NCBI RefSeq assembly: GCF_018336815.1
Contig: NZ_CP050497.1
Coordinates: 1,798,001-1,862,000, forward strand
Source: Treponema vincentii
Lineage (GTDB): Bacteria; Spirochaetota; Spirochaetia; Treponematales; Treponemataceae
DNA: 64,000 nucleotides
Reading direction: 5' to 3'
The position numbers and the translations under genes were made by a program. The notes under the pieces are model-generated. The model worked only from the letters and a program-made list of their open reading frames with translations, ran no database searches and was not told the DNA's origin. Position 1 is the first letter of the stretch. Each line of letters starts with the position of its first letter. Shown here in pieces: positions 33,245 to 59,314 of this stretch.

Positions 33245-35539
33245 ATGCAGACGGATATAATAAGATTTATCGATGATGAAAGTAAGCAGGAATGTATGGC
33301 TGTAGCCGGGTATCTTTATAATCTATGTTCGAATAGTAAACATCTGGATAAGTATAAATCATTACTGATATTATTACAGGCACTCATTGTGCGTCTAAAA
33401 AAAGAAACACAAGCTGAAACAATTGTGCAAGCATTTATTCAAAAAGGGATAAAGGAAAAACAGCTAACGGTATTTACGCCGGGAAAAAATTACAATCATC
33501 CGTTTGAATACGGGAGTAAATTGGATGTAAATTTTAAAGAAGATACGAAAATCGCTGCAGCTGTTGACAATTTTACGACCGATTCCATTTTTACGATAAA
33601 TCTTTGCCGTTGTGTTTTTATGCAGAGAGAAAACCTTGCTAAAATTATCGCACTTATTTTCTTTTCCGCCAAGATAAATAACAATGATACATATATCATT
33701 CCTCAGAGAATAAATGTTTCAGCACGGATAACCAAGATACTTAATGATATAACTCCTGTTGAATTTCTATTTGATACCTTACATCTTTCACACCAAGAAG
33801 CGGTATTGCTTACGGCAGTATATAGAACACAGACAATCTATGAACTCTATAATTTTTATGATGATGTGTTATATCAAAACACAGAAAATAAAATGACGAT
33901 ATATGCAAAATGTATTAATACGTCTTTACAAGCAATAAGAATCTTATTTGAGAATGATAAAAAGCTTATTTCATTCGGGTTAATGAATAAGTACGATTAC
34001 GGTTGTATTGAAAACGAAAGTATTTATTGTATTTACAATAAAAATTTTGATGCGTTTTTTTCCGGCACATTAAAAGAAGAAAAAGCAAACGCTGCCTTTA
34101 ATCTCAATAGCTACGCTATAAAAAAAGAGCATTCAAGCTTGGCATTGCAATTTCTAAAAAGTAACTTTCCGTCAAATATTTTACTCTATGGAAGTCCCGG
34201 AGCCGGTAAAACGGAATTTGCAAAAACACTTGCAAAAGAAAGCGGACTGCGACTGTTTATGTTTAAAAATGAGCTGGATACCGATAGAGCATTGCAGCGC
34301 TTACATTGTATTCTTTCTATTCCTAAAAAGGATACACTGTTTGTTATTGACGAAGCTGAAAATATCTTAAAAACAATTGAGCCGCATTTTAGGATGTTTA
34401 TGAGCACTACTGAAAAAGGGATTGTAAATAAGATGCTTGATAATAATGTCAATAAAGTTGTGTGGATTGTTAATTATACTGATCTTCTTGACATATCTAC
34501 GTTGCGGCGTTTTACGTATTCAATTAAGTTTAACGAAATGCCGAAATCACTTTTGAAAAAAATCGCACAGTCAAAATTACAAAACAGCAACATAAGCGGC
34601 AAAATCTTACATACACTTGTCGATCTCTGCGACAATTACCGTATAACAGGTGCCTCAATCGATAATATGATTAAAGCGGTGAATAGTGTTCATTGCAGCA
34701 GTCAAACTGAAGAGCAAATCGTTATTGATGTAAAAAATACGCTTGAAGCAAATTCCGGACTTATATACGGTAGTTCCCATGCCGGCAGAAAAATACAAAA
34801 GACATACGATATTGGGGCGCTCAACACCTCTATCGAACCGGATGATATTATCACGATGATAAAAAATGCAGAAGCGTATTCTGAGTCTGTACAAACAGAT
34901 GTTCCCGCCGGAATCCGTATGCTTTTTTATGGATTAAGCGGTACCGGAAAAACGGAATTTGCACGATATATTGCAAACTCTTTGGCTAAAGAGCTTATTC
35001 TAAAAAAAGCTTCCGATATATTAGGAAAATATGTCGGCGAAAGTGAACAGAATATTAAAGAGGCTTTTGAAGAAGCGGAAAGACAAGATGCGATACTGCT
35101 ATTTGATGAGGCTGATTCATTTTTTACCAACCGTTTCAATGCAGAAAATACTTGGGAGCGGACAATGGTCAATGAATTTTTAATGCAGATAGAAGCCTTT
35201 AACGGTTTATTGATTTGCACTACCAATATGCGCAGCATCATGGATCCTGCATTGCAACGCCGCTTTCATATTATGGTTGAGTTTCAAGCCCTCTCTGCAA
35301 ATGGAATAAAAACTTTGTTGATGAAATATTTTCATAATGTGTCATTTAATGCTGATCAAATAGAAAAGCTCAACCAATGGCAATCCGTTACTCCGGGGGA
35401 TTTTAACGCGCTCTATGGAAAAGCACGGTTTATGCCGCAAGAAAAAATAACTTCCGAATATATTATTACTGAATTAGCACAGATGCAGCAAGAAAAAAAC
35501 GGCGTACAAAAAATGATCGGATTTAGTATCAATGCATAA
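33245..35539 (+). CDS. Cytoplasmic protein with two AAA+ ATPase domains
   Basis: 764 residues. The N-terminal 290 residues are mostly helical and unassigned. AAA-1 has Walker A GSPGAGKT (316-323) and Walker B LFVIDEAEN (Asp369-Glu370). AAA-2 has Walker A GLSGTGKT (563-570), a pore-like KYVGESE and Walker B ILLFDEADS (Asp621-Glu622), with an arginine-finger candidate in DPALQRRF. The tandem layout resembles Cdc48/SpoVK-type remodelers, but the N-domain is unlike them. Two signal-less LRR proteins follow 38 bases later in the same direction, so an operon is likely. Confidence 0.85.
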   Translation: MQTDIIRFIDDESKQECMAVAGYLYNLCSNSKHLDKYKSLLILLQALIVRLKKETQAETIVQAFIQKGIKEKQLTVFTPGKNYNHPFEYGSKLDVNFKEDTKIAAAVDNFTTDSIFTINLCRCVFMQRENLAKIIALIFFSAKINNNDTYIIPQRINVSARITKILNDITPVEFLFDTLHLSHQEAVLLTAVYRTQTIYELYNFYDDVLYQNTENKMTIYAKCINTSLQAIRILFENDKKLISFGLMNKYDYGCIENESIYCIYNKNFDAFFSGTLKEEKANAAFNLNSYAIKKEHSSLALQFLKSNFPSNILLYGSPGAGKTEFAKTLAKESGLRLFMFKNELDTDRALQRLHCILSIPKKDTLFVIDEAENILKTIEPHFRMFMSTTEKGIVNKMLDNNVNKVVWIVNYTDLLDISTLRRFTYSIKFNEMPKSLLKKIAQSKLQNSNISGKILHTLVDLCDNYRITGASIDNMIKAVNSVHCSSQTEEQIVIDVKNTLEANSGLIYGSSHAGRKIQKTYDIGALNTSIEPDDIITMIKNAEAYSESVQTDVPAGIRMLFYGLSGTGKTEFARYIANSLAKELILKKASDILGKYVGESEQNIKEAFEEAERQDAILLFDEADSFFTNRFNAENTWERTMVNEFLMQIEAFNGLLICTTNMRSIMDPALQRRFHIMVEFQALSANGIKTLLMKYFHNVSFNADQIEKLNQWQSVTPGDFNALYGKARFMPQEKITSEYIITELAQMQQEKNGVQKMIGFSINA

Positions 35540-35577
35540 CTGATAGATAATTTATGAAATATAAACGGAGGAAAAGT

Positions 35578-36540
35578 ATGGAACACATATCTGCATTACG
35601 GCTTACCGCTGAAGAAGAAGCCAATTTGCAGCTGTTGAGAATAACAGATGGGATACTCATCGGAGTAACAAATAGAGACGACCTCACCGGAAGTCTTATA
35701 TTACCGGACACTATTACCGAAATCGGGAGAAAAGCATTAAGCGGCTGTACGGGTTTAACAAGCATTACCATACCGGACAGCGTTACTCAAATCGGGTACG
35801 GCGCTTTTTTCCGCTGCATGAGCCTCACAAGTATTACCGTTCATTCCGATAATCCAGCCTATTGCACTCAAGAAAATATACTTTATACAAAAGATATGAA
35901 AACACTTTTACGGGCTGTTGCAACAGGATGTGTGGTCATACCTTATGGTGTAATTGAAATCAGCTATGGGGCTTTTTCCCGGTGTAGAGGTGTAACGAGT
36001 ATTTCCATACCGGATAGCGTTATTAAAATCGCTATGGGAGCTTTTTGCTATTGCAGCAGTATAACACATATTATTATACCAAGCAGTGTTACTGATATCG
36101 GTATGGGACCTTTTGGTTATTGCACAAAGTTAACGGATATTCCCGTCGATAAAGCAAATCCAGTCTATTGTAGCAAAGATAATATGCTCTATACAAAAAA
36201 CATGAAGACCCTTATACAAGCAACTCCCGTAAAGACTTTCATAATACCGGAGCACGTTACCGCAATAGGCGGTTATTGTCTTGCCGGTTGTACTGATGTA
36301 ACCACTGTTATCATACCGGATGGGGTTATCGAAATTGGAGAAGGTGCATTTGACAGTTGTGAAAGATTAGACAATATAATCATAAAATCCGAGCGTTTAA
36401 CGGAAATCGGATACGATGCTTTTTCGCATATTAAACACGATGCACGGTTTACCGTAAAAAACGAATCGATAAAAGCGCTGTTACAAACTTGCGGCAGCGA
36501 TCTACAGAACGGACAAATTACCGTTAATTCGAATTTATAG
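35578..36540 (+). CDS. BspA-type leucine-rich-repeat protein, no signal peptide
   Basis: 320 residues using ATG 35578 behind GGAGGA. It is built of about eleven LRR_5 units of 23 residues, pattern LTSITIPDSVTQIGYGAFFRC. It starts MEHISALRLTAEEEANLQ, nearly the same as the next gene, and lacks any export signal, so it should be cytoplasmic, unlike classical BspA adhesins. Two irregular units include NPAYCTQENILYTKDMKTLL and NPVYCSKDNMLYTKNMKTL, a known insert type in this family. It follows the two-domain AAA ATPase. Confidence 0.88.
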   Translation: MEHISALRLTAEEEANLQLLRITDGILIGVTNRDDLTGSLILPDTITEIGRKALSGCTGLTSITIPDSVTQIGYGAFFRCMSLTSITVHSDNPAYCTQENILYTKDMKTLLRAVATGCVVIPYGVIEISYGAFSRCRGVTSISIPDSVIKIAMGAFCYCSSITHIIIPSSVTDIGMGPFGYCTKLTDIPVDKANPVYCSKDNMLYTKNMKTLIQATPVKTFIIPEHVTAIGGYCLAGCTDVTTVIIPDGVIEIGEGAFDSCERLDNIIIKSERLTEIGYDAFSHIKHDARFTVKNESIKALLQTCGSDLQNGQITVNSNL

Positions 36541-36552
36541 GATAGAGAAAAT

Positions 36553-37332
36553 ATGGAACAGATATCTGCATTAAAACTTACCGCTGAAGAAGAATCAAAT
36601 GTACAGTTGCTGGAAATAACAGACGGGATAGTTATCGGCGTAACAAATAGCGCCTACTTTACTGGAAGTCTTATATTACCGGATACAATTACGGAAATTG
36701 CTCATCACGCCTTTGAAGGCTGCAGCGGTCTCACACGTATTGTTATACCTGATAGTGTTACTAAAATCGGTGACTGGCTTTTCCGCGATTGTACCGATTT
36801 AAAAGAGGTTATTATTGGAAGCGGTATTTCAAAAATCGGTATTGGAGCTTTCTTTGATTGCACTCATTTAAGCACTATCACCATACCGCAGGGCATTATC
36901 GAAATAGGAAATCTCGCGTTTAAGAGCTGCAGCAGTTTAAAAACTATCAATATTCCGAGCAGCGTTCGTAAGATCGGCGAGTGGGCATTTGTCTGTTGTA
37001 GTGGTTTAACGGAATTGAATATCGAAAAAGGCGTTACCTCAATTGAATACAGAAGCTTTGTTTGCTGCACCGGTTTAACAAGCATTACCATACCGGACAG
37101 CGTTACTCAAATCGGTGAGGAAGCTTTTGGTGCATGCAGCCGCTTAGCAGCTATTAGAATTCCCGATAGCGTTACCGAAATCGGAAATAATGCCTTTTGT
37201 AATATTCAAAGCAACGCACAGTTTATCGTAGCAAGCAAGGCGGTAAAAAAACTACTAAAGCATTCTGACAGTTCTATACAAGATGAACACATTATCGTAA
37301 CACACAGTAATATCGAACATTGTCAGTTGTAA
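36553..37332 (+). CDS. BspA-type leucine-rich-repeat protein, paralogue of upstream gene
   Basis: 259 residues, about nine LRR_5 units. The first 20 residues (MEQISALKLTAEEESNVQLL) and the block GSLILPDTITEIA duplicate the preceding protein. It starts 12 bases after that stop codon and has no signal peptide. Tandem duplication followed by repeat-number change is the likely origin. The stop codon is followed at 37341 by family E copy 2. Confidence 0.88.
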   Translation: MEQISALKLTAEEESNVQLLEITDGIVIGVTNSAYFTGSLILPDTITEIAHHAFEGCSGLTRIVIPDSVTKIGDWLFRDCTDLKEVIIGSGISKIGIGAFFDCTHLSTITIPQGIIEIGNLAFKSCSSLKTINIPSSVRKIGEWAFVCCSGLTELNIEKGVTSIEYRSFVCCTGLTSITIPDSVTQIGEEAFGACSRLAAIRIPDSVTEIGNNAFCNIQSNAQFIVASKAVKKLLKHSDSSIQDEHIIVTHSNIEHCQL

Positions 37333-37340
37333 ATTTTCTA

Positions 37341-37400
37341 CCTCTATCACTTCCTGATAGACTGACTATGCTATTAGTATAGTTAATTGGGACAATCACT
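37341..37400 (+). repeat. Family E repeat, copy 2
   Basis: CCTCTATCACTTCCTGATAG, then GACTGACTATGCTATTAGT and ATAGTTAATTGGGACAATCA. The sequence before it, TGTCAGTTGTAA with the LRR stop codon, matches the 3' end of the gene before copy 3 (ATCAGTTGTTAA), so the duplicated unit may include the gene end. Confidence 0.82.
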
Positions 37401-37446
37401 GAAAATGTAGCGTATGTTCAATTTTAATTTTTAAGGAGAATCTCCG

Positions 37447-37626
37447 ATGGAAATAGTTATTTGGTGCGGCAAATATGGGATTAATAATTGCGGACGTCAT
37501 TATACAGCACCTGTTTTTGGCGTCAAACGGTTCGAAAAAGCGAAAAAGAATACAAATTGGTTTCAAAAACAAAATGATAAAAAAACATTCAGCGACTTCT
37601 TGAAAGACGCTATCGAAAAAAAATAA
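37447..37626 (+). CDS. Small basic protein, 59 aa, unknown
   Basis: ATG 37447 lies 10 bases after AAGGAG, just downstream of family E copy 2. It encodes MEIVIWCGKYGINNCGRHY followed by a K-rich stretch ending DFLKDAIEKK. Two cysteines and a G-rich start are the only notable features; no family is recognised. The good ribosome site supports expression. It is short enough to be missed by length-limited gene finders. Confidence 0.5.
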   Translation: MEIVIWCGKYGINNCGRHYTAPVFGVKRFEKAKKNTNWFQKQNDKKTFSDFLKDAIEKK

Positions 37627-37742
37627 TTTAGAACAGAGGAGAGAATCAGCAGGCAACTAAGATGCCCTATTATTGGTATTAAGTATGGTTCCTTAAAATT
37701 CACTAGCCGAATAAAATATCAATTTTAGAGGCTTCTGAATTG

Positions 37743-37825
37743 GTGCGCAGAATGCGCACATTTTAATAAGCGAGTTTGCGCTTGAGCAAACTCGACGGTT
37801 AACGAGGCAACCCTATTTGGTTGCC
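37743..37825. repeat. Three tandem hairpins at 5' edge of the 124-aa frame
   Basis: GTGCGC-AGAAT-GCGCAC (37743-37759), CGAGTTTGC-GCTTGA-GCAAACTCG (37771-37794) and GGCAACC-CCTATTT-GGTTGCC-like arms (37806-37825). The middle one matches the CGAGTTTGC hairpin of family D. The last overlaps the first codons of the following frame. Confidence 0.75.
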
Positions 37826-38195
37826 GAAGTTATACCTTGGTATATTTTGGCTCCTTCCCGATTTATCCGATTTATTTTATGTCGATAAAACAGACATTAC
37901 ATTTGCACAAAAATATGGTGATTGGCTACTATCTCAAGAAGACCATAGTAATGTATGGGAGAAATTAAAACAAAATGGTTATTTGCACTATTTACCGAAA
38001 AGGTACAGAGATGAGTATTGGAAATTACCAAGAGGCAGAGTCTCATATAATATATTACTTGGTAAATATTATGTATATCATGGCAATTGGTTCTTAATAA
38101 AACATGCAAAAATTATTGAGAAAAAATTTGAGCTTCCAGTCAATCATATCGTTTATGAAGAAGACGAACACTATTCGAACAATATCAGTTGTTAA
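37821..38195 (+). CDS. Unknown soluble protein, N-terminus uncertain
   Basis: About 124 residues from a TTG that lies inside a hairpin arm, without a ribosome site, so the true start may have been displaced by the hairpin array. The body is rich in W, Y and K (WEKLKQNGYLHYLPKRYRDEYWK, then GRVSYNILLGKYYVYHGNWFL) and ends ELPVNHIVYEEDEHY. No known domain is recognised. Reading-frame length and composition suggest a real or recently real gene. Family E copy 3 starts 15 bases after its stop. Confidence 0.45.
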   Translation: MPKLYLGIFWLLPDLSDLFYVDKTDITFAQKYGDWLLSQEDHSNVWEKLKQNGYLHYLPKRYRDEYWKLPRGRVSYNILLGKYYVYHGNWFLIKHAKIIEKKFELPVNHIVYEEDEHYSNNISC

Positions 38196-38209
38196 AAAGA
38201 TTTTTTTTA

Positions 38210-38275
38210 CCTCTATCATCGCCTGATAGACTAACTATACTATTAGTATAGTCAGTTGAGACAATCATTGAAGGG
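38210..38275 (+). repeat. Family E repeat, copy 3
   Basis: CCTCTATCATCGCCTGATAG, then ACTAACTATACTATTAGT and ATAGTCAGTTGAGACAATCA, then TTGAAGGGAAAGCGCAG, which parallels TGAAGGGGAAGCGAGG after copy 1. It is followed within 60 bases by a family D copy. Confidence 0.82.
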
Positions 38276-38326
38276 AAAGCGCAGATTGAGAGCAATAGAT
38301 ACTATTTCATTGATCTTATGAAAAAA

Positions 38327-38468
38327 GTTTATTTTAAGCGGTACAAATGGTACCGCTTAAAAACACGGCGAGTTTGCTTTGCGCAAACATCGTAAATTGT
38401 ATGTACGTTATCGCGTACGAATGCAATAGTCTCCAAAATTGATATTTTGTTCGACTGTTGCATTTTAA
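38327..38468. repeat. Family D structured repeat, copy 1
   Basis: Starts GTTTATTTT and contains hairpins AAGCGGTAC / GTACCGCTT, CGAGTTTGC / GCAAACATCG, GTACG / CGCGTAC and a long TGCAATAGTC..AAAAT / ATTTT..GACTGTTGCA, ending ATTTTAAAG. Copy 2 at 59109-59253 has the same plan. At least three stem positions differ by paired substitutions that keep the stems. Confidence 0.8.
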
Positions 38469-38496
38469 AGAAAGTTTAAAAAAAATATTTTCATGC

Positions 38497-38530
38497 TTGA
38501 CTTTTGAGGGGGGGGGGGGGGGGGTATTAT
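38497..38530 (+). promoter_or_regulatory. Promoter with 17-G tract in the spacer
   Basis: TTGACT (38497-38502) and TATTAT (38525-38530) are separated by 22 bases, of which 38508-38524 are 17 consecutive G. Loss of about 5 G would restore the optimal 17-base spacing. Such a tract is prone to slippage, so this is a probable phase-variable promoter. Poly-G tracts upstream of T. pallidum genes are known to modulate transcription this way. The nearest downstream gene starts at 38667. Confidence 0.75.
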
Positions 38531-38666
38531 GGAAGAAATTTGATTGAATTGAAACGATGTTAACAAAATGACGGCTCATGTAAATTCAGCAAATGCTGTT
38601 TGTACAGGAACAACAAATAGGTTACACGTATTCAATTCGAAAAATAAATGCCAAAAGGAGATTATT

Positions 38667-38900
38667 ATGGCACAGAAATTTTATTGCAAATGGTGTGGTA
38701 CAAACTATTCAAGCGTTTCAAGTTTAACTTCCGGTCATTGTTCTCGTAATCCGGAAGGAAAATACCACGAGCTGTATGAAGGGGCTGAAAAAAGTCAGTA
38801 TACCTGTAAGTTTTGTGGAGCGAAATATTCTTCATTATCAAGTTTGACAAGTGGTAACTGTAGCAAGAGCCCGTATAAGAAACACCATCCCGCGTTATAG
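38667..38900 (+). CDS. 77-aa protein with two tandem zinc-finger-like repeats
   Basis: ATG 38667 follows AAAAGGAG; an in-frame ATG at 38568 would add 33 residues but lacks a ribosome site. Two 40-residue units repeat: C7-x2-C10 ... C25 ... H34 and C47-x2-C50 ... C65 ... H73/H74, each reading CxxCGxxYSSxSSLTSGxC. The C-C-C-H spacing suggests one zinc per unit, perhaps for nucleic-acid or protein binding. No export signal. It is the first gene after the poly-G promoter and is likely subject to its switching. Confidence 0.72.
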   Translation: MAQKFYCKWCGTNYSSVSSLTSGHCSRNPEGKYHELYEGAEKSQYTCKFCGAKYSSLSSLTSGNCSKSPYKKHHPAL

Positions 38901-38993
38901 AGAGAAATTGAGTGCTTTAAGATATAAGATAAGTCATCTAAAAAAATAGTGTGATGCTGTCTCCCACTATTTAAGTGAATTGAAGCTCTATGA

Positions 38994-39055
38994 TTGACAT
39001 GAGGTCAGCCTGTTTTCGACGACATCAAAACAGGCTGACCTCATACTATGTATAA
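38994..39055 (+). promoter_or_regulatory. 18-bp perfect hairpin ahead of the LRR lipoprotein
   Basis: Arms ATGAGGTCAGCCTGTTTT (38999-39016) and AAAACAGGCTGACCTCAT (39027-39044) enclose a 10-base loop. TTGACA (38994-38999) lies directly at the left arm and TACTAT at the right end, and AAAGGAG follows at 39055. It could be an operator, a terminator or attenuator, or a cruciform; sequence alone does not decide. Confidence 0.6.
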
Positions 39056-39068
39056 AAGGAGTTGTATT

Positions 39069-42035
39069 ATGAAACACAGATATATTTTACTTCTTAGTGC
39101 GCTTGTATTATTTACCGGCGCCGTAATAATGATCGGCTGTCCTGCCCACGTACAACCGCAAACCCAAAAGTACAAGGTAACGCTCAACTCCGGCAAGCAC
39201 GGTTCGGTAACAGTAAATCCCGCACTCCCTGAGGACGGCATGGTTGAAGCGCATACGTGGCTTTCTTTTACCGCGCAACCTGACGAGGGGTATGAAGTTG
39301 ATACATGGACGGGAGCAAACCGTAACTATCCCGATAATACGACAGCGACGCTTACGGTAATGGCAGACACGACCGTATCCGTCACATTTAAAAGGATAGG
39401 CTACAGTTCGGAAAAGCAGAAGTACAAGGTTACGCTTGTTCAACCCGAACACGGTACGGTAACGGTGAAACCTGCCTTATCTGAAGACGGAATGATTCCA
39501 CAGCATACTCGTCTTACTTTTACTGTAACACCGGAACCCGGTTGGAAGGTGAACAAATGGACGGGGGCGGGTATATGGCAAGATAAGATAGGATACGATG
39601 TTGAGAACAATGAGGTACATCTTTCCGTAACCGAAGATGTAATCGTAAGCGTTACGATGATAGAAGAAGGGAAAGCCGATGCATCGCTTTTGAAAATCGA
39701 TTCAACCGGCAGACTGACCGGTGTAACCAACAAATACAGACTAAAGGGAAGTCTAGCGCTTCCGAATACGGTTACCGCAATCGGCAGTGAAGCGTTTGCC
39801 GACTGTACCGATTTAACAAGCGTGATTATACCTGATAGCGTTACCTCAATCGGTTACAATGCTTTTTATCTGTGCACCGGCTTAACAGGCGTTACAATCG
39901 GAAATAATGTTACTGAAATTGATGAAAGCGCTTTTTCCGGCTGTCATAATTTAACGAGTATTACGGTACCGGATAGCGTTACTAAAATAGGAAACTTCGC
40001 TTTTTCTGGCTGTAAAAGCTTAACAAGTGTTACGATCGGAAAAGGCGTTACCAAAATAGACATGTCCGCTTTTTCCCGTTGCAATAAGATTGAGACACTC
40101 AACATTAATTGTAAAACGGTACCGTATCTCGGTATGACATCTCTTAAAGAGCTTACGCTCGACGATAATGTGAACGAAATCGGAGAGCAAGCATTTTACA
40201 GTTGTACCGATTTAACAAACGTTACCATACCGAACAGTGTTACAAAAATAGGAAACAAGGCGTTTCAAGGCTGTACCGGCTTAACGGATGTTATCATTCC
40301 TGATAGCGTTACGGAAATTGGTAAGGCTGCTTTTAAAGATTGCTCAAATATTACCGGTCTGACTATCGGCAAAGGGCTTACTACTATTCACGATGAAGAT
40401 TATTATTCTAATGAATTTCCTTTTGACGGCTGTAATAAGATTGAGAAACTGAATATCAACTGTAAGACTGTCCCACGTCTTAACATCAAAAGTCTTAAAG
40501 AGGTTATTATCGGTGATAATGCTGCTATAATAAATGGATATTCTTTTTCCAATTATACCAGCTTAACAAACATCACTATCGGAAATAATGTTACAACGAT
40601 CAGTGATAATGCATTTTCCGGCTGTACCGGCTTAACGGATGTTATCATTCCCGATAGCGTTACGGAAATCGGCGCGAGTGCTTTTGCCAGCTGTACTAAA
40701 TTAGCAACTGTTAACATCGGAAATAACGTTACGACAATCAGTAATAATGCATTTTCCGGCTGTACCGGCTTAACAAGTGTTACCATACCAGATAGCGTTA
40801 CGGAAATCGGACAAAGAACTTTTTCCGGCTGCACCGGATTAGCGACCATTACCATACCGGACAATGTAACTGAAATAGGATATGCGACTTTTGCTAGCTG
40901 TACCGGCTTAACAAGTATTAGTATACCGGATACTGTTACAAAAATAGGAAGCGAGGCGTTTAAAGGCTGCACCGGCTTAATCGGTATTACGATCGGCTCC
41001 GGTGTTACAAAAATCAATGATAATACTTTTTCAAACTGTACCGGCTTAACAAGTATTACTATACCGGATAGCGTTACAGAAATAGGAAGTAGAGCGTTTC
41101 AAGGCTGCACCGGCTTAACGGATGTTATCATACCTGATAGTGTTACCGATCTAGGAGATAGTGCTTTTAAAAACTGTTCAAATATTACCAGTTTGACTAT
41201 CGGCAAAGGGCTTACTACTAATTATTATCTCTATCACACTCCTTTTGACGGTTGTAATAAGATTGAACACCTGAATATCAACTGTAAGATTCTCCCGCGT
41301 CTTAACATCAAAAGTCTTAAAGAGGTTATTATCGGTGATAATGTCAATACAATAAGTAAAGATGCTTTTTCCAACTGTACCGATTTAACAAACGTTACTA
41401 TTGGCAATAACATTACTACAATCAGCGATAACGCATTTTCGGGCTGCACCAGCTTAACGGATGTTATCATACCTGATAGTGTTACGGAAATCGGCAAATC
41501 CGCTTTTAAGAATTGTTCAAGTATTACCAGTCTGACTATCGGCAAAGGGCTTACCACTATTCTATTAGAAGATGATTATCCCTATAAAAAAGCTCCTTTT
41601 GACGGCTGTAACAAGATTGAGAAACTAAGCATCAATTGCAATCCTATCCCAGCTCTTGGTTTTCTCCGTACAAGTCTTAAAGATGTTATTATCGGTGACA
41701 ATGTTACCAAAATTGATGACTGGGCGTTTTCCGGCTGTGACAGTTTAGCAAATGTTACTATAGGCAATAGCGTTGTCTCTATTGGCAACAGTTCTTTTGA
41801 GAACTGTACGAGCTTAACAAGTCTGACCATCGGTGACAATATTACCGAAATTAGTAAGTATGCTTTTGTACTCTGTTCCAGCCTAACAAGCGCGAAGTTC
41901 GAGAATACGATGGGTTGGAAAGTGAGGGATGGTAGCTTTCAAATGAACATAGAACCAACGAATCTGCAAAATCATTCAACAGCTGCGAAGTATTTAAAAT
42001 CCATGTATGTTAATTATCGCTGGACTAGAAACTAA
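39069..42035 (+). CDS. Large BspA-like leucine-rich-repeat surface lipoprotein
   Basis: 988 residues from ATG 39069. The signal peptide ends in lipobox IMIGC (Cys24). Two InlB-type beta repeats follow (about 35-112, starting KYKVTLNSGKHGSVTV, and 118-198, starting KYKVTLVQPEHGTVTV), then about 30 LRR_5 units (215-960) of pattern CTGLTSVTIPDSVTEIG. Some units are imperfect and include GCNKIEKLNINCKTVP spacers. BspA relatives bind fibronectin or other bacteria and promote aggregation, so a surface adhesin is likely. Near-identical 69-base units within the gene invite recombination and length change. Confidence 0.92.
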   Translation: MKHRYILLLSALVLFTGAVIMIGCPAHVQPQTQKYKVTLNSGKHGSVTVNPALPEDGMVEAHTWLSFTAQPDEGYEVDTWTGANRNYPDNTTATLTVMADTTVSVTFKRIGYSSEKQKYKVTLVQPEHGTVTVKPALSEDGMIPQHTRLTFTVTPEPGWKVNKWTGAGIWQDKIGYDVENNEVHLSVTEDVIVSVTMIEEGKADASLLKIDSTGRLTGVTNKYRLKGSLALPNTVTAIGSEAFADCTDLTSVIIPDSVTSIGYNAFYLCTGLTGVTIGNNVTEIDESAFSGCHNLTSITVPDSVTKIGNFAFSGCKSLTSVTIGKGVTKIDMSAFSRCNKIETLNINCKTVPYLGMTSLKELTLDDNVNEIGEQAFYSCTDLTNVTIPNSVTKIGNKAFQGCTGLTDVIIPDSVTEIGKAAFKDCSNITGLTIGKGLTTIHDEDYYSNEFPFDGCNKIEKLNINCKTVPRLNIKSLKEVIIGDNAAIINGYSFSNYTSLTNITIGNNVTTISDNAFSGCTGLTDVIIPDSVTEIGASAFASCTKLATVNIGNNVTTISNNAFSGCTGLTSVTIPDSVTEIGQRTFSGCTGLATITIPDNVTEIGYATFASCTGLTSISIPDTVTKIGSEAFKGCTGLIGITIGSGVTKINDNTFSNCTGLTSITIPDSVTEIGSRAFQGCTGLTDVIIPDSVTDLGDSAFKNCSNITSLTIGKGLTTNYYLYHTPFDGCNKIEHLNINCKILPRLNIKSLKEVIIGDNVNTISKDAFSNCTDLTNVTIGNNITTISDNAFSGCTSLTDVIIPDSVTEIGKSAFKNCSSITSLTIGKGLTTILLEDDYPYKKAPFDGCNKIEKLSINCNPIPALGFLRTSLKDVIIGDNVTKIDDWAFSGCDSLANVTIGNSVVSIGNSSFENCTSLTSLTIGDNITEISKYAFVLCSSLTSAKFENTMGWKVRDGSFQMNIEPTNLQNHSTAAKYLKSMYVNYRWTRN

Positions 42036-59045: not shown

Positions 59046-59314
59046 TAAACCTGTTCGGAAACTTCCGTTTCTGAACAGGTTACCTTGAAATGCGATGTTC
59101 TAAATCGTATGTTTATTTTCAGTCGCTGAAATAGCGCGGCTGAAAAACACATCGAGTTTGCTTCGCAAACATCGCGTATTAACGTATGCGCGTTCCGCAC
59201 ATCAATGCAGCAGTTTCCAAAGTTCACACTTTGTTCAACTGTTGCATTTTAGGGTGCTATTTGTGCGATTTAGAACTCGTCGACCTATTCGAAAACGCAG
59301 TTATCGAATAGGTC
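59046..59314. repeat. Family C element, copy 3, with family D inserted in it
   Basis: AACCTGTTC..GAACAGGTT (59047-59080), then TTACCTTGAAATGCGAT. The left arm GTTCTAAATCGT of the middle hairpin is separated from its right arm GCTATTTGTGCGATTTAGAAC by the 145-base family D block. GACCTATTC..GAATAGGTC follows. A GT is present on both sides of the insert. This shows the D block is inserted in an existing C element. Confidence 0.85.
59109..59253. repeat. Family D structured repeat, copy 2 (nested)
   Basis: GTTTATTTT start, hairpins TTTTCAGtCGCT / AGCGcgGCTGAAAA, CGAGTTTGC-TTC-GCAAACATCG and TGCAGCAGTT..AAAGT / ACTTT..AACTGTTGCA, ending ATTTTAGG. It is the partner of 38327-38468. Confidence 0.82.

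Follow-up and report, generated by a model that had tools for sequence, protein, structure and literature searches.

A candidate phase-variable promoter with a poly-G spacer in Treponema vincentii, and related promoters upstream of lipoprotein genes

A G tract inside a promoter spacer

The analysed stretch of Treponema vincentii DNA (64 kb of contig NZ_CP050497.1, below called the window) contains a long run of G between two promoter-like hexamers. Does the length of this run set the activity of the promoter, and if so, which genes are switched? An earlier note had described TTGACT and TATTAT around a 22-base spacer in which 17 bases form a single run of G, and this description is exact in the sequence. 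The elements of the candidate promoter are as follows.

38497..38502, plus strand: -35 hexamer TTGACT (window sequence), preceded by C as in the genus sites with a full match
38503..38507, plus strand: TTTGA, the fixed part of the spacer (window sequence and genus promoter alignment)
38508..38524, plus strand: tract of 17 G; its orthologues have 15 G in one species, 16 G in another and a stretch of N in one more
38525..38530, plus strand: -10 hexamer TATTAT (window sequence, relatives and genus promoter alignment)
38531..38538, plus strand: GGAAGAAA, the RGAAGAAA block 3' of the -10 hexamer, conserved over 24 genus sites

A homopolymer is located between recognisable -35 and -10 hexamers, as in promoter-spacer phase variation of the porA and TP0126 kind. 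It is the sole G or C run of at least 8 in the window, the second-longest G run being 6. Geometric extrapolation of the run lengths in the window, both strands considered, gives 6.6e-7 runs of at least 17 expected by chance. The genome (G000, 2.71 Mb) contains 20 tracts of at least nine G, of which this one is the longest; six of them have TTGAC at most 16 nt upstream. The count of 17 is the value from one assembly, where lengths of long homopolymers are uncertain and the consensus does not equal the population.

A consensus scan of 37300-39300, with spacers of 16-18, gave no further promoter-like site on the plus strand beyond 38252. The predicted transcript start is near 38537, inside the block 38531..38538. 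It is plausible that the promoter is weak at the 17 G of this assembly.

Comparison with known promoters

The TP0126 gene of T. pallidum, encoding an OmpW homologue, has poly-G between the -35 and -10 hexamers and is transcribed best with a 17-bp spacer, according to the available parts of the report (PMC7864442). With this optimum, the window promoter would need 12 G. In both cases poly-G is located inside a promoter spacer in a Treponema. However, TP0126 is a putative outer-membrane protein, whereas here the first gene encodes a small zinc-finger protein with no signal peptide, and the window promoter, unlike that of TP0126, is one of many copies of a cassette that carries a conserved block 3' of the -10 hexamer. 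The locus is not a TP0126 orthologue, as the zinc-finger protein is followed by an LRR lipoprotein and there is no OmpW-type beta-barrel. In the genome G005, which we take to be T. pallidum-like, TCGACA and TAGAAT are separated by an 18-bp spacer that contains a G9 tract (L210, position 148351). By its position, we assume, this may be the TP0126 promoter.

Poly-G also occupies the promoter spacer of porA in Neisseria meningitidis, and spacing sets transcription there; the available parts of the report treat it as one gene of an unrelated organism and do not mention a shared cassette (PMC7864442). The promoters of tprE/G/J and tprL of T. pallidum depend on poly-G length, those of tprE/G/J being permissive at 8 Gs or fewer, and a porA-like spacing mechanism was ruled out for tprL, in the same parts of that report (PMC7864442). 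These are poly-G promoters as well, but differ in that spacing is excluded as the mechanism for tprL. The vlp lipoprotein genes of Mycoplasma hyorhinis form a family, each with a poly-A homopolymer in the promoter spacer. The likeness is in a lipoprotein gene family with spacer homopolymers, but the homopolymer here is poly-G (or poly-C) and the phylum is unrelated.

As far as the available text goes, work on poly-G switching in treponemes has taken T. pallidum genes one at a time. A survey that counted homopolymers of at least 7 in T. medium and others makes no mention of promoter spacers in its available parts (PMC8049484). No description of a stereotyped family of poly-G spacer promoters was found in a literature search of open-licence PMC full text, available in part.

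The same locus in related species

We compared seven genomes of the genus, including G000 itself and the 1.14-Mb genome G005. The locus is present in three of the six others (G001, G006 and G002), in a syntenic neighbourhood. Homology begins just 5' of the -35 hexamer, and farther upstream the sequence is unlike that of the window in all three. The promoter, leader and zinc-finger gene are about 95% identical to the window, and TTGACTTTTGA is identical in two of the three orthologous promoters. The tract has 17 G in the window, 15 in G006 and 16 in G002, with a run of N in G001. Between the window and G006 the hexamers are identical and the tract differs (17 vs 15), which is the between-species pattern of spacer phase variation, with the reservation that such differences may accrue over long times and that homopolymers are miscounted in assemblies.

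The -10 hexamer of G002 reads TTAGTTAT, a poor one if real. TAGTTAT follows four of the 11 tracts in this genome (L067, L187, L188, L190), and the compared relatives carry TATTAT (L067 vs the window and G006; L190 vs L197). A sequencing error behind long homopolymers is the likely cause, and thus tract lengths warrant caution. If assembly artefacts went further, the true tract could be much shorter or different, with ordinary fixed spacing. Homopolymers of this kind are easily miscounted, and both the run of N in G001 and the TAGTTAT sites of G002 could be taken in this sense. However, three separate assemblies (G000, G006 and G002) have long tracts at this site, and we consider an artefact very unlikely.

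The tract also lies within a minus-strand frame of 81 aa (38334-38579), where it would encode a proline run and might switch translation. Such a frame does exist, and some other tracts of the group are close to starts of frames on the C strand. However, the flank forming the rest of the frame differs in G006, G002 and G001, whereas the leader and gene on the plus strand are kept. As the flank is unlike in the relatives, we rejected the idea that the tract is coding on the minus strand; it is hardly conceivable.

A family of poly-G promoters in the genus

The genus genomes were searched with the pattern TTGACN{2,8}G7N{0,18}TANNNT, which allows spacers of about 8-32, the reversed pattern serving as control. 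There were 25 rows of matches, corresponding to 24 distinct sites, in five of the seven genomes (five in G000, seven in G001, one each in G002 and G003, ten in G006), and none with the control. No match was found in G005. The shared form is C-TTGACTTTTGA-Gn-TATTAT-RGAAGAAA. The C before TTGAC is present in 24 of 24 sites with a full match; 25 sites were entered in the promoter alignment, and L144, whose tract is broken, has no full match. Positions 2-6 of the RGAAGA motif after the -10 hexamer are conserved as G, A, A, G and A in 100, 96, 96, 100 and 96 percent of the 24 sites, and the next two positions are mostly AA.

At the 23 measurable sites the spacers range from 12 to 22 with a median of 18, and nine of them are at 16-18 (L125, with a run of N, was omitted, and the -10 hexamer of L130 was taken as GATAAT). 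Orthologous sites, matched by upstream sequence, may differ in n: one has 7 in G000 vs 14 in G006, and another pair has 14 vs 16. The orthologous pair L132/L133 has 12 G in both species.

The association was also observed with no promoter presupposed. The seven genomes contain 130 tracts of at least nine G, and 26 of these have TTGAC at most 16 nt upstream. Seven intervals shifted further upstream gave 1, 2, 2, 1, 1, 3 and 1 occurrences, and downstream there were 0 (Fisher p 8e-17). By genome, TTGAC accompanies 6/20 tracts in G000, 5/13 in G001, 3/11 in G002 and 10/22 in G006, with 1/24 in G003, 0/7 in G004 and 1/33 in G005; thus the promoter class belongs mainly to close relatives of the window genome. 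The other 104 tracts are something else.

The tract length might also regulate transcription by a route other than the -35/-10 spacing, that is, by affecting DNA shape, melting or how a regulator (a CRP homologue, for instance) binds. At tprL poly-G acts without a change of spacing, and CRP binding is described at tprE/G/J, in the available parts of the report (PMC7864442). The RGAAGAAA block after the -10 hexamer and the C before the -35 hexamer could likewise be contacts of an extra factor. However, the tract lies exactly between conserved hexamers, and the centring of 23 spacers on 18 is not predicted by such a mechanism. Moreover, at 11 sites of a third genus (G108) the tract is G8-9 and the fixed part of the spacer is longer, yet the spacer is still 15-16. 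A route other than spacing is unlikely, though to be kept in mind, and a change of the -35/-10 distance is the reading that we prefer.

Lipoprotein genes downstream of the promoters

Lipoproteins were called by a crude lipobox rule and inspection, with the start at most 330 nt downstream. A lipoprotein start is found downstream of 16 of the 29 genus sites, or 16 of 25 if the four zinc-finger loci are set aside. The bare rule fires at 18 of 29, and L126 and L136 were dropped, as the protein resembles a membrane receptor; among the 16 kept sites, L121 (35 aa) and L133 (42 aa) are very short frames and L140 is a second candidate start. At tracts without TTGAC in five genomes, with the rule restricted to ATG starts, there were two lipoprotein starts in 49. 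The bias between TTGAC and non-TTGAC tracts has Fisher p 1.3e-7 (16/27, with two sites lacking a -10 hexamer omitted), where orthologous and paralogous sites are counted apart and so are independent only in part. Among ordinary ORFs taken from the window and from three syntenic regions, 4/35 have a lipoprotein start, one of them doubtful.

In a second genus (G079), six of nine sites precede lipoproteins by eye and five by the rule. In G108, lipoproteins follow all 11 sites examined, of 16 distinct ones listed; at least three of these lipoproteins are close paralogues. Gain and loss of G probably switches such lipoprotein genes randomly between on and off in the cells.

The zinc-finger gene and the second gene

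The region downstream of the window promoter contains the following features.

38531..38666, plus strand: 5' leader (comparison of four species and predicted folding)
38655..38660, plus strand: Shine-Dalgarno box AAGGAG (window sequence)
38667..38900, plus strand: putative double zinc-finger protein of 77 aa with two C-x2-C-G...C...H modules (predicted model)
38999..39044, plus strand: hairpin in the interval from the zinc-finger gene to the LRR gene, about 20 bp long and with no U-tail (folding)
39069..42035, plus strand: LRR lipoprotein of the BspA type, which may be the second gene on the switched transcript

The ATG of the zinc-finger ORF, at 38667, is six bases past AAGGAG. Over 140 bases compared in four species the leader has nine variable columns, and five of five varying pairs of its predicted long-range stem still pair, by one-sided changes only.

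The zinc-finger protein has no signal peptide. Its Pfam matches fall under the curated cut-offs, and a comparison with NCBIfam gave no match at E 0.01; the modules and the predicted secondary structure fit the C2H2 type. The predicted model consists of two strand-helix units (mean pLDDT 86.7). A Foldseek search of its fold against PDB gave nothing better than E 0.6 and no significant match, and by sequence the PDB entries that match best are zinc fingers of eukaryotes (lowest E 3e-4). Contact with nucleic acid or protein is a guess from this model.

The LRR lipoprotein may be co-transcribed with the zinc-finger gene, since the scan with spacers of 16-18 found no plus-strand promoter-like site between them; yet the hairpin in this interval is strong (-37.9 kcal/mol for 38960-39068, z -5.6). 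It is absent from the list given by the terminator scan and has no U-tail, and its copy in G001 is imperfect. Both the window and G001 have the LRR lipoprotein as second gene; G006 has a different one, whose N-terminus is signal-like and whose start region is shared by G002. Of the two targets named by the earlier note, the zinc-finger gene gains support, its homologues in two other genera having promoters with a homopolymer in the spacer. Control of the LRR lipoprotein is less certain, because of the hairpin of about 20 bp and the different second gene in two of the four species.

Distribution outside the genus

In the family, the poly-G pattern was found in 76 of 195 genomes, with 264 matches including alternates; the reversed control gave 16 in 14 genomes. 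A poly-C version had 75 matches in 30 of 195 genomes (control, 22 in 13), none of them in the genus of the window. A phylum-wide sample contained matches in 45 of 198 genomes, among them 13 of the 20 family members. Outside the family there were 49 matches vs 23 for the control, in 32 of 178 genomes. The clear excess of the pattern is in this family, and a phylum-wide promoter class was rejected, as the pattern is near the control outside it. The majority residues of RGAAGAAA recur in the genus of G079 (nine sites), and the block was not apparent at the 11 sites of G108.

Of 118 family genomes, 24 encode a homologue of the zinc-finger protein. At six of these 24 loci the 320 nt upstream include a G or C run of at least 7; 15 have no run and three are undecided. 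The six are four of the genus, G079 and G022. The promoter reads TTGATT-TTTTC-G14-A-TATAAT-AGAAGAAAG in G079 and, near a contig end, TTGACT-C11-ATGG-TATACT in G022, the hexamers in both cases being read by eye. This recurrence of a homopolymer in two other genera, once as C, is the best sign that the zinc-finger gene itself is a selected target. The tract does not accompany the gene everywhere: it is seen at six of the 24 family loci, and no run of at least nine was found within 300 nt upstream of the match at 36 other zinc-finger loci, one of them without upstream sequence.

Zinc-finger modules of this kind also occur in other family genomes (L309, L310, L307), where larger proteins with membrane-like segments carry arrays of them at the C-terminus; there is also a free array of five modules.

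The promoter could be an ordinary one whose G run is unstable but neutral, or else a decayed copy, and the tract length would then have no adaptive role. Indeed, poly-G runs are common in treponemes, as stated in the available parts of the survey (PMC8049484), and 104/130 tracts have no TTGAC at most 16 nt upstream. The window promoter, at 22 bp, is far from the optimum and thus could be a decayed copy. However, tracts are linked to the hexamers in one stereotyped cassette, and lipoprotein genes follow it far above controls. The tract is kept in the orthologues despite turnover of the upstream flank, and zinc-finger homologues of two further genera have a spacer homopolymer of their own. A neutral run is quite improbable.

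Proposed mechanism

Judging from these sequence comparisons, the locus is probably a phase-variable sigma-70-type promoter, in which slippage in the G tract would change the distance between the -35 and -10 hexamers. The switch proposed earlier fits the comparison, as the hexamers are kept with another tract length, the 24 sites form a family with spacers of 12-22 and a median of 18, and TP0126 provides a precedent.

RNA polymerase requires about 17 bp between the hexamers, and slipped-strand mispairing in the tract would alter this distance. About 12 G, giving a 17-bp spacer, would make a strong promoter, and clearly more or fewer would make it weak or silent. The transcript would start near 38537 and carry the structured leader, then the zinc-finger gene, and possibly the LRR lipoprotein gene behind it. 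The locus would be one copy of the cassette that stands before many lipoprotein genes of this Treponema group, and many envelope genes could thereby have independent on/off settings in each cell.

The mechanism is of a known kind; what would be new is a multi-copy cassette biased to lipoprotein genes, together with a recurrent zinc-finger target. More tentatively, and with rather less than even confidence, we suggest that Treponemataceae possess a dedicated class of portable cassettes, with fixed -35 and -10 hexamers, RGAAGAAA in some genera and a slippery G or C run. Such cassettes would give many lipoprotein genes a stochastic switch each, independent of the others, and make the envelope combinatorial. 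The zinc-finger protein would be a recurrently recruited member that is not at the surface; it may act in regulation or sensing, in which case a single slippage could change further genes. If this is true, the spacing rule can be tested on tens of natural promoters together, variable lipoprotein expression would be explained, and the signature could serve to find switched genes in unannotated genomes.

Other repeats and tracts

One more element is located close to the promoter.

38321..38475, plus strand: copy of a dispersed repeat, about 150 bp, ending 21 bases before the -35 hexamer and not part of the switch

Further copies of this repeat (up to about 150 bp) are found in the window at 37689-37797 and 59111-59251. 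It has 41 matches in the same genome and also matches repeatedly in four of the six others (G001, G002, G004 and G006). Upstream, in the region 33245-37332, a gene that by eye resembles an AAA-type ATPase precedes two LRR-type genes lacking an obvious signal peptide; G006 and G002 have these blocks in another order.

A second class of tracts is located near starts of frames on the C strand, which read NEKSIIPPPPP (L178, L198) or MRNMSIIPPPPP (L197), the tract centre being at about position 605. The same flank is found at L175, L192 and L196 (in G006, G001 and G002). Such a position suggests translational phase variation. Finally, tracts of 10 to 41 G occur inside frames of similar sequence (...GGGTLTAKIGETE...) at L046 and L050 of the same genome, L177 and L183 of G006 and L193 of G001. 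These in-frame tracts are candidate frameshift switches.
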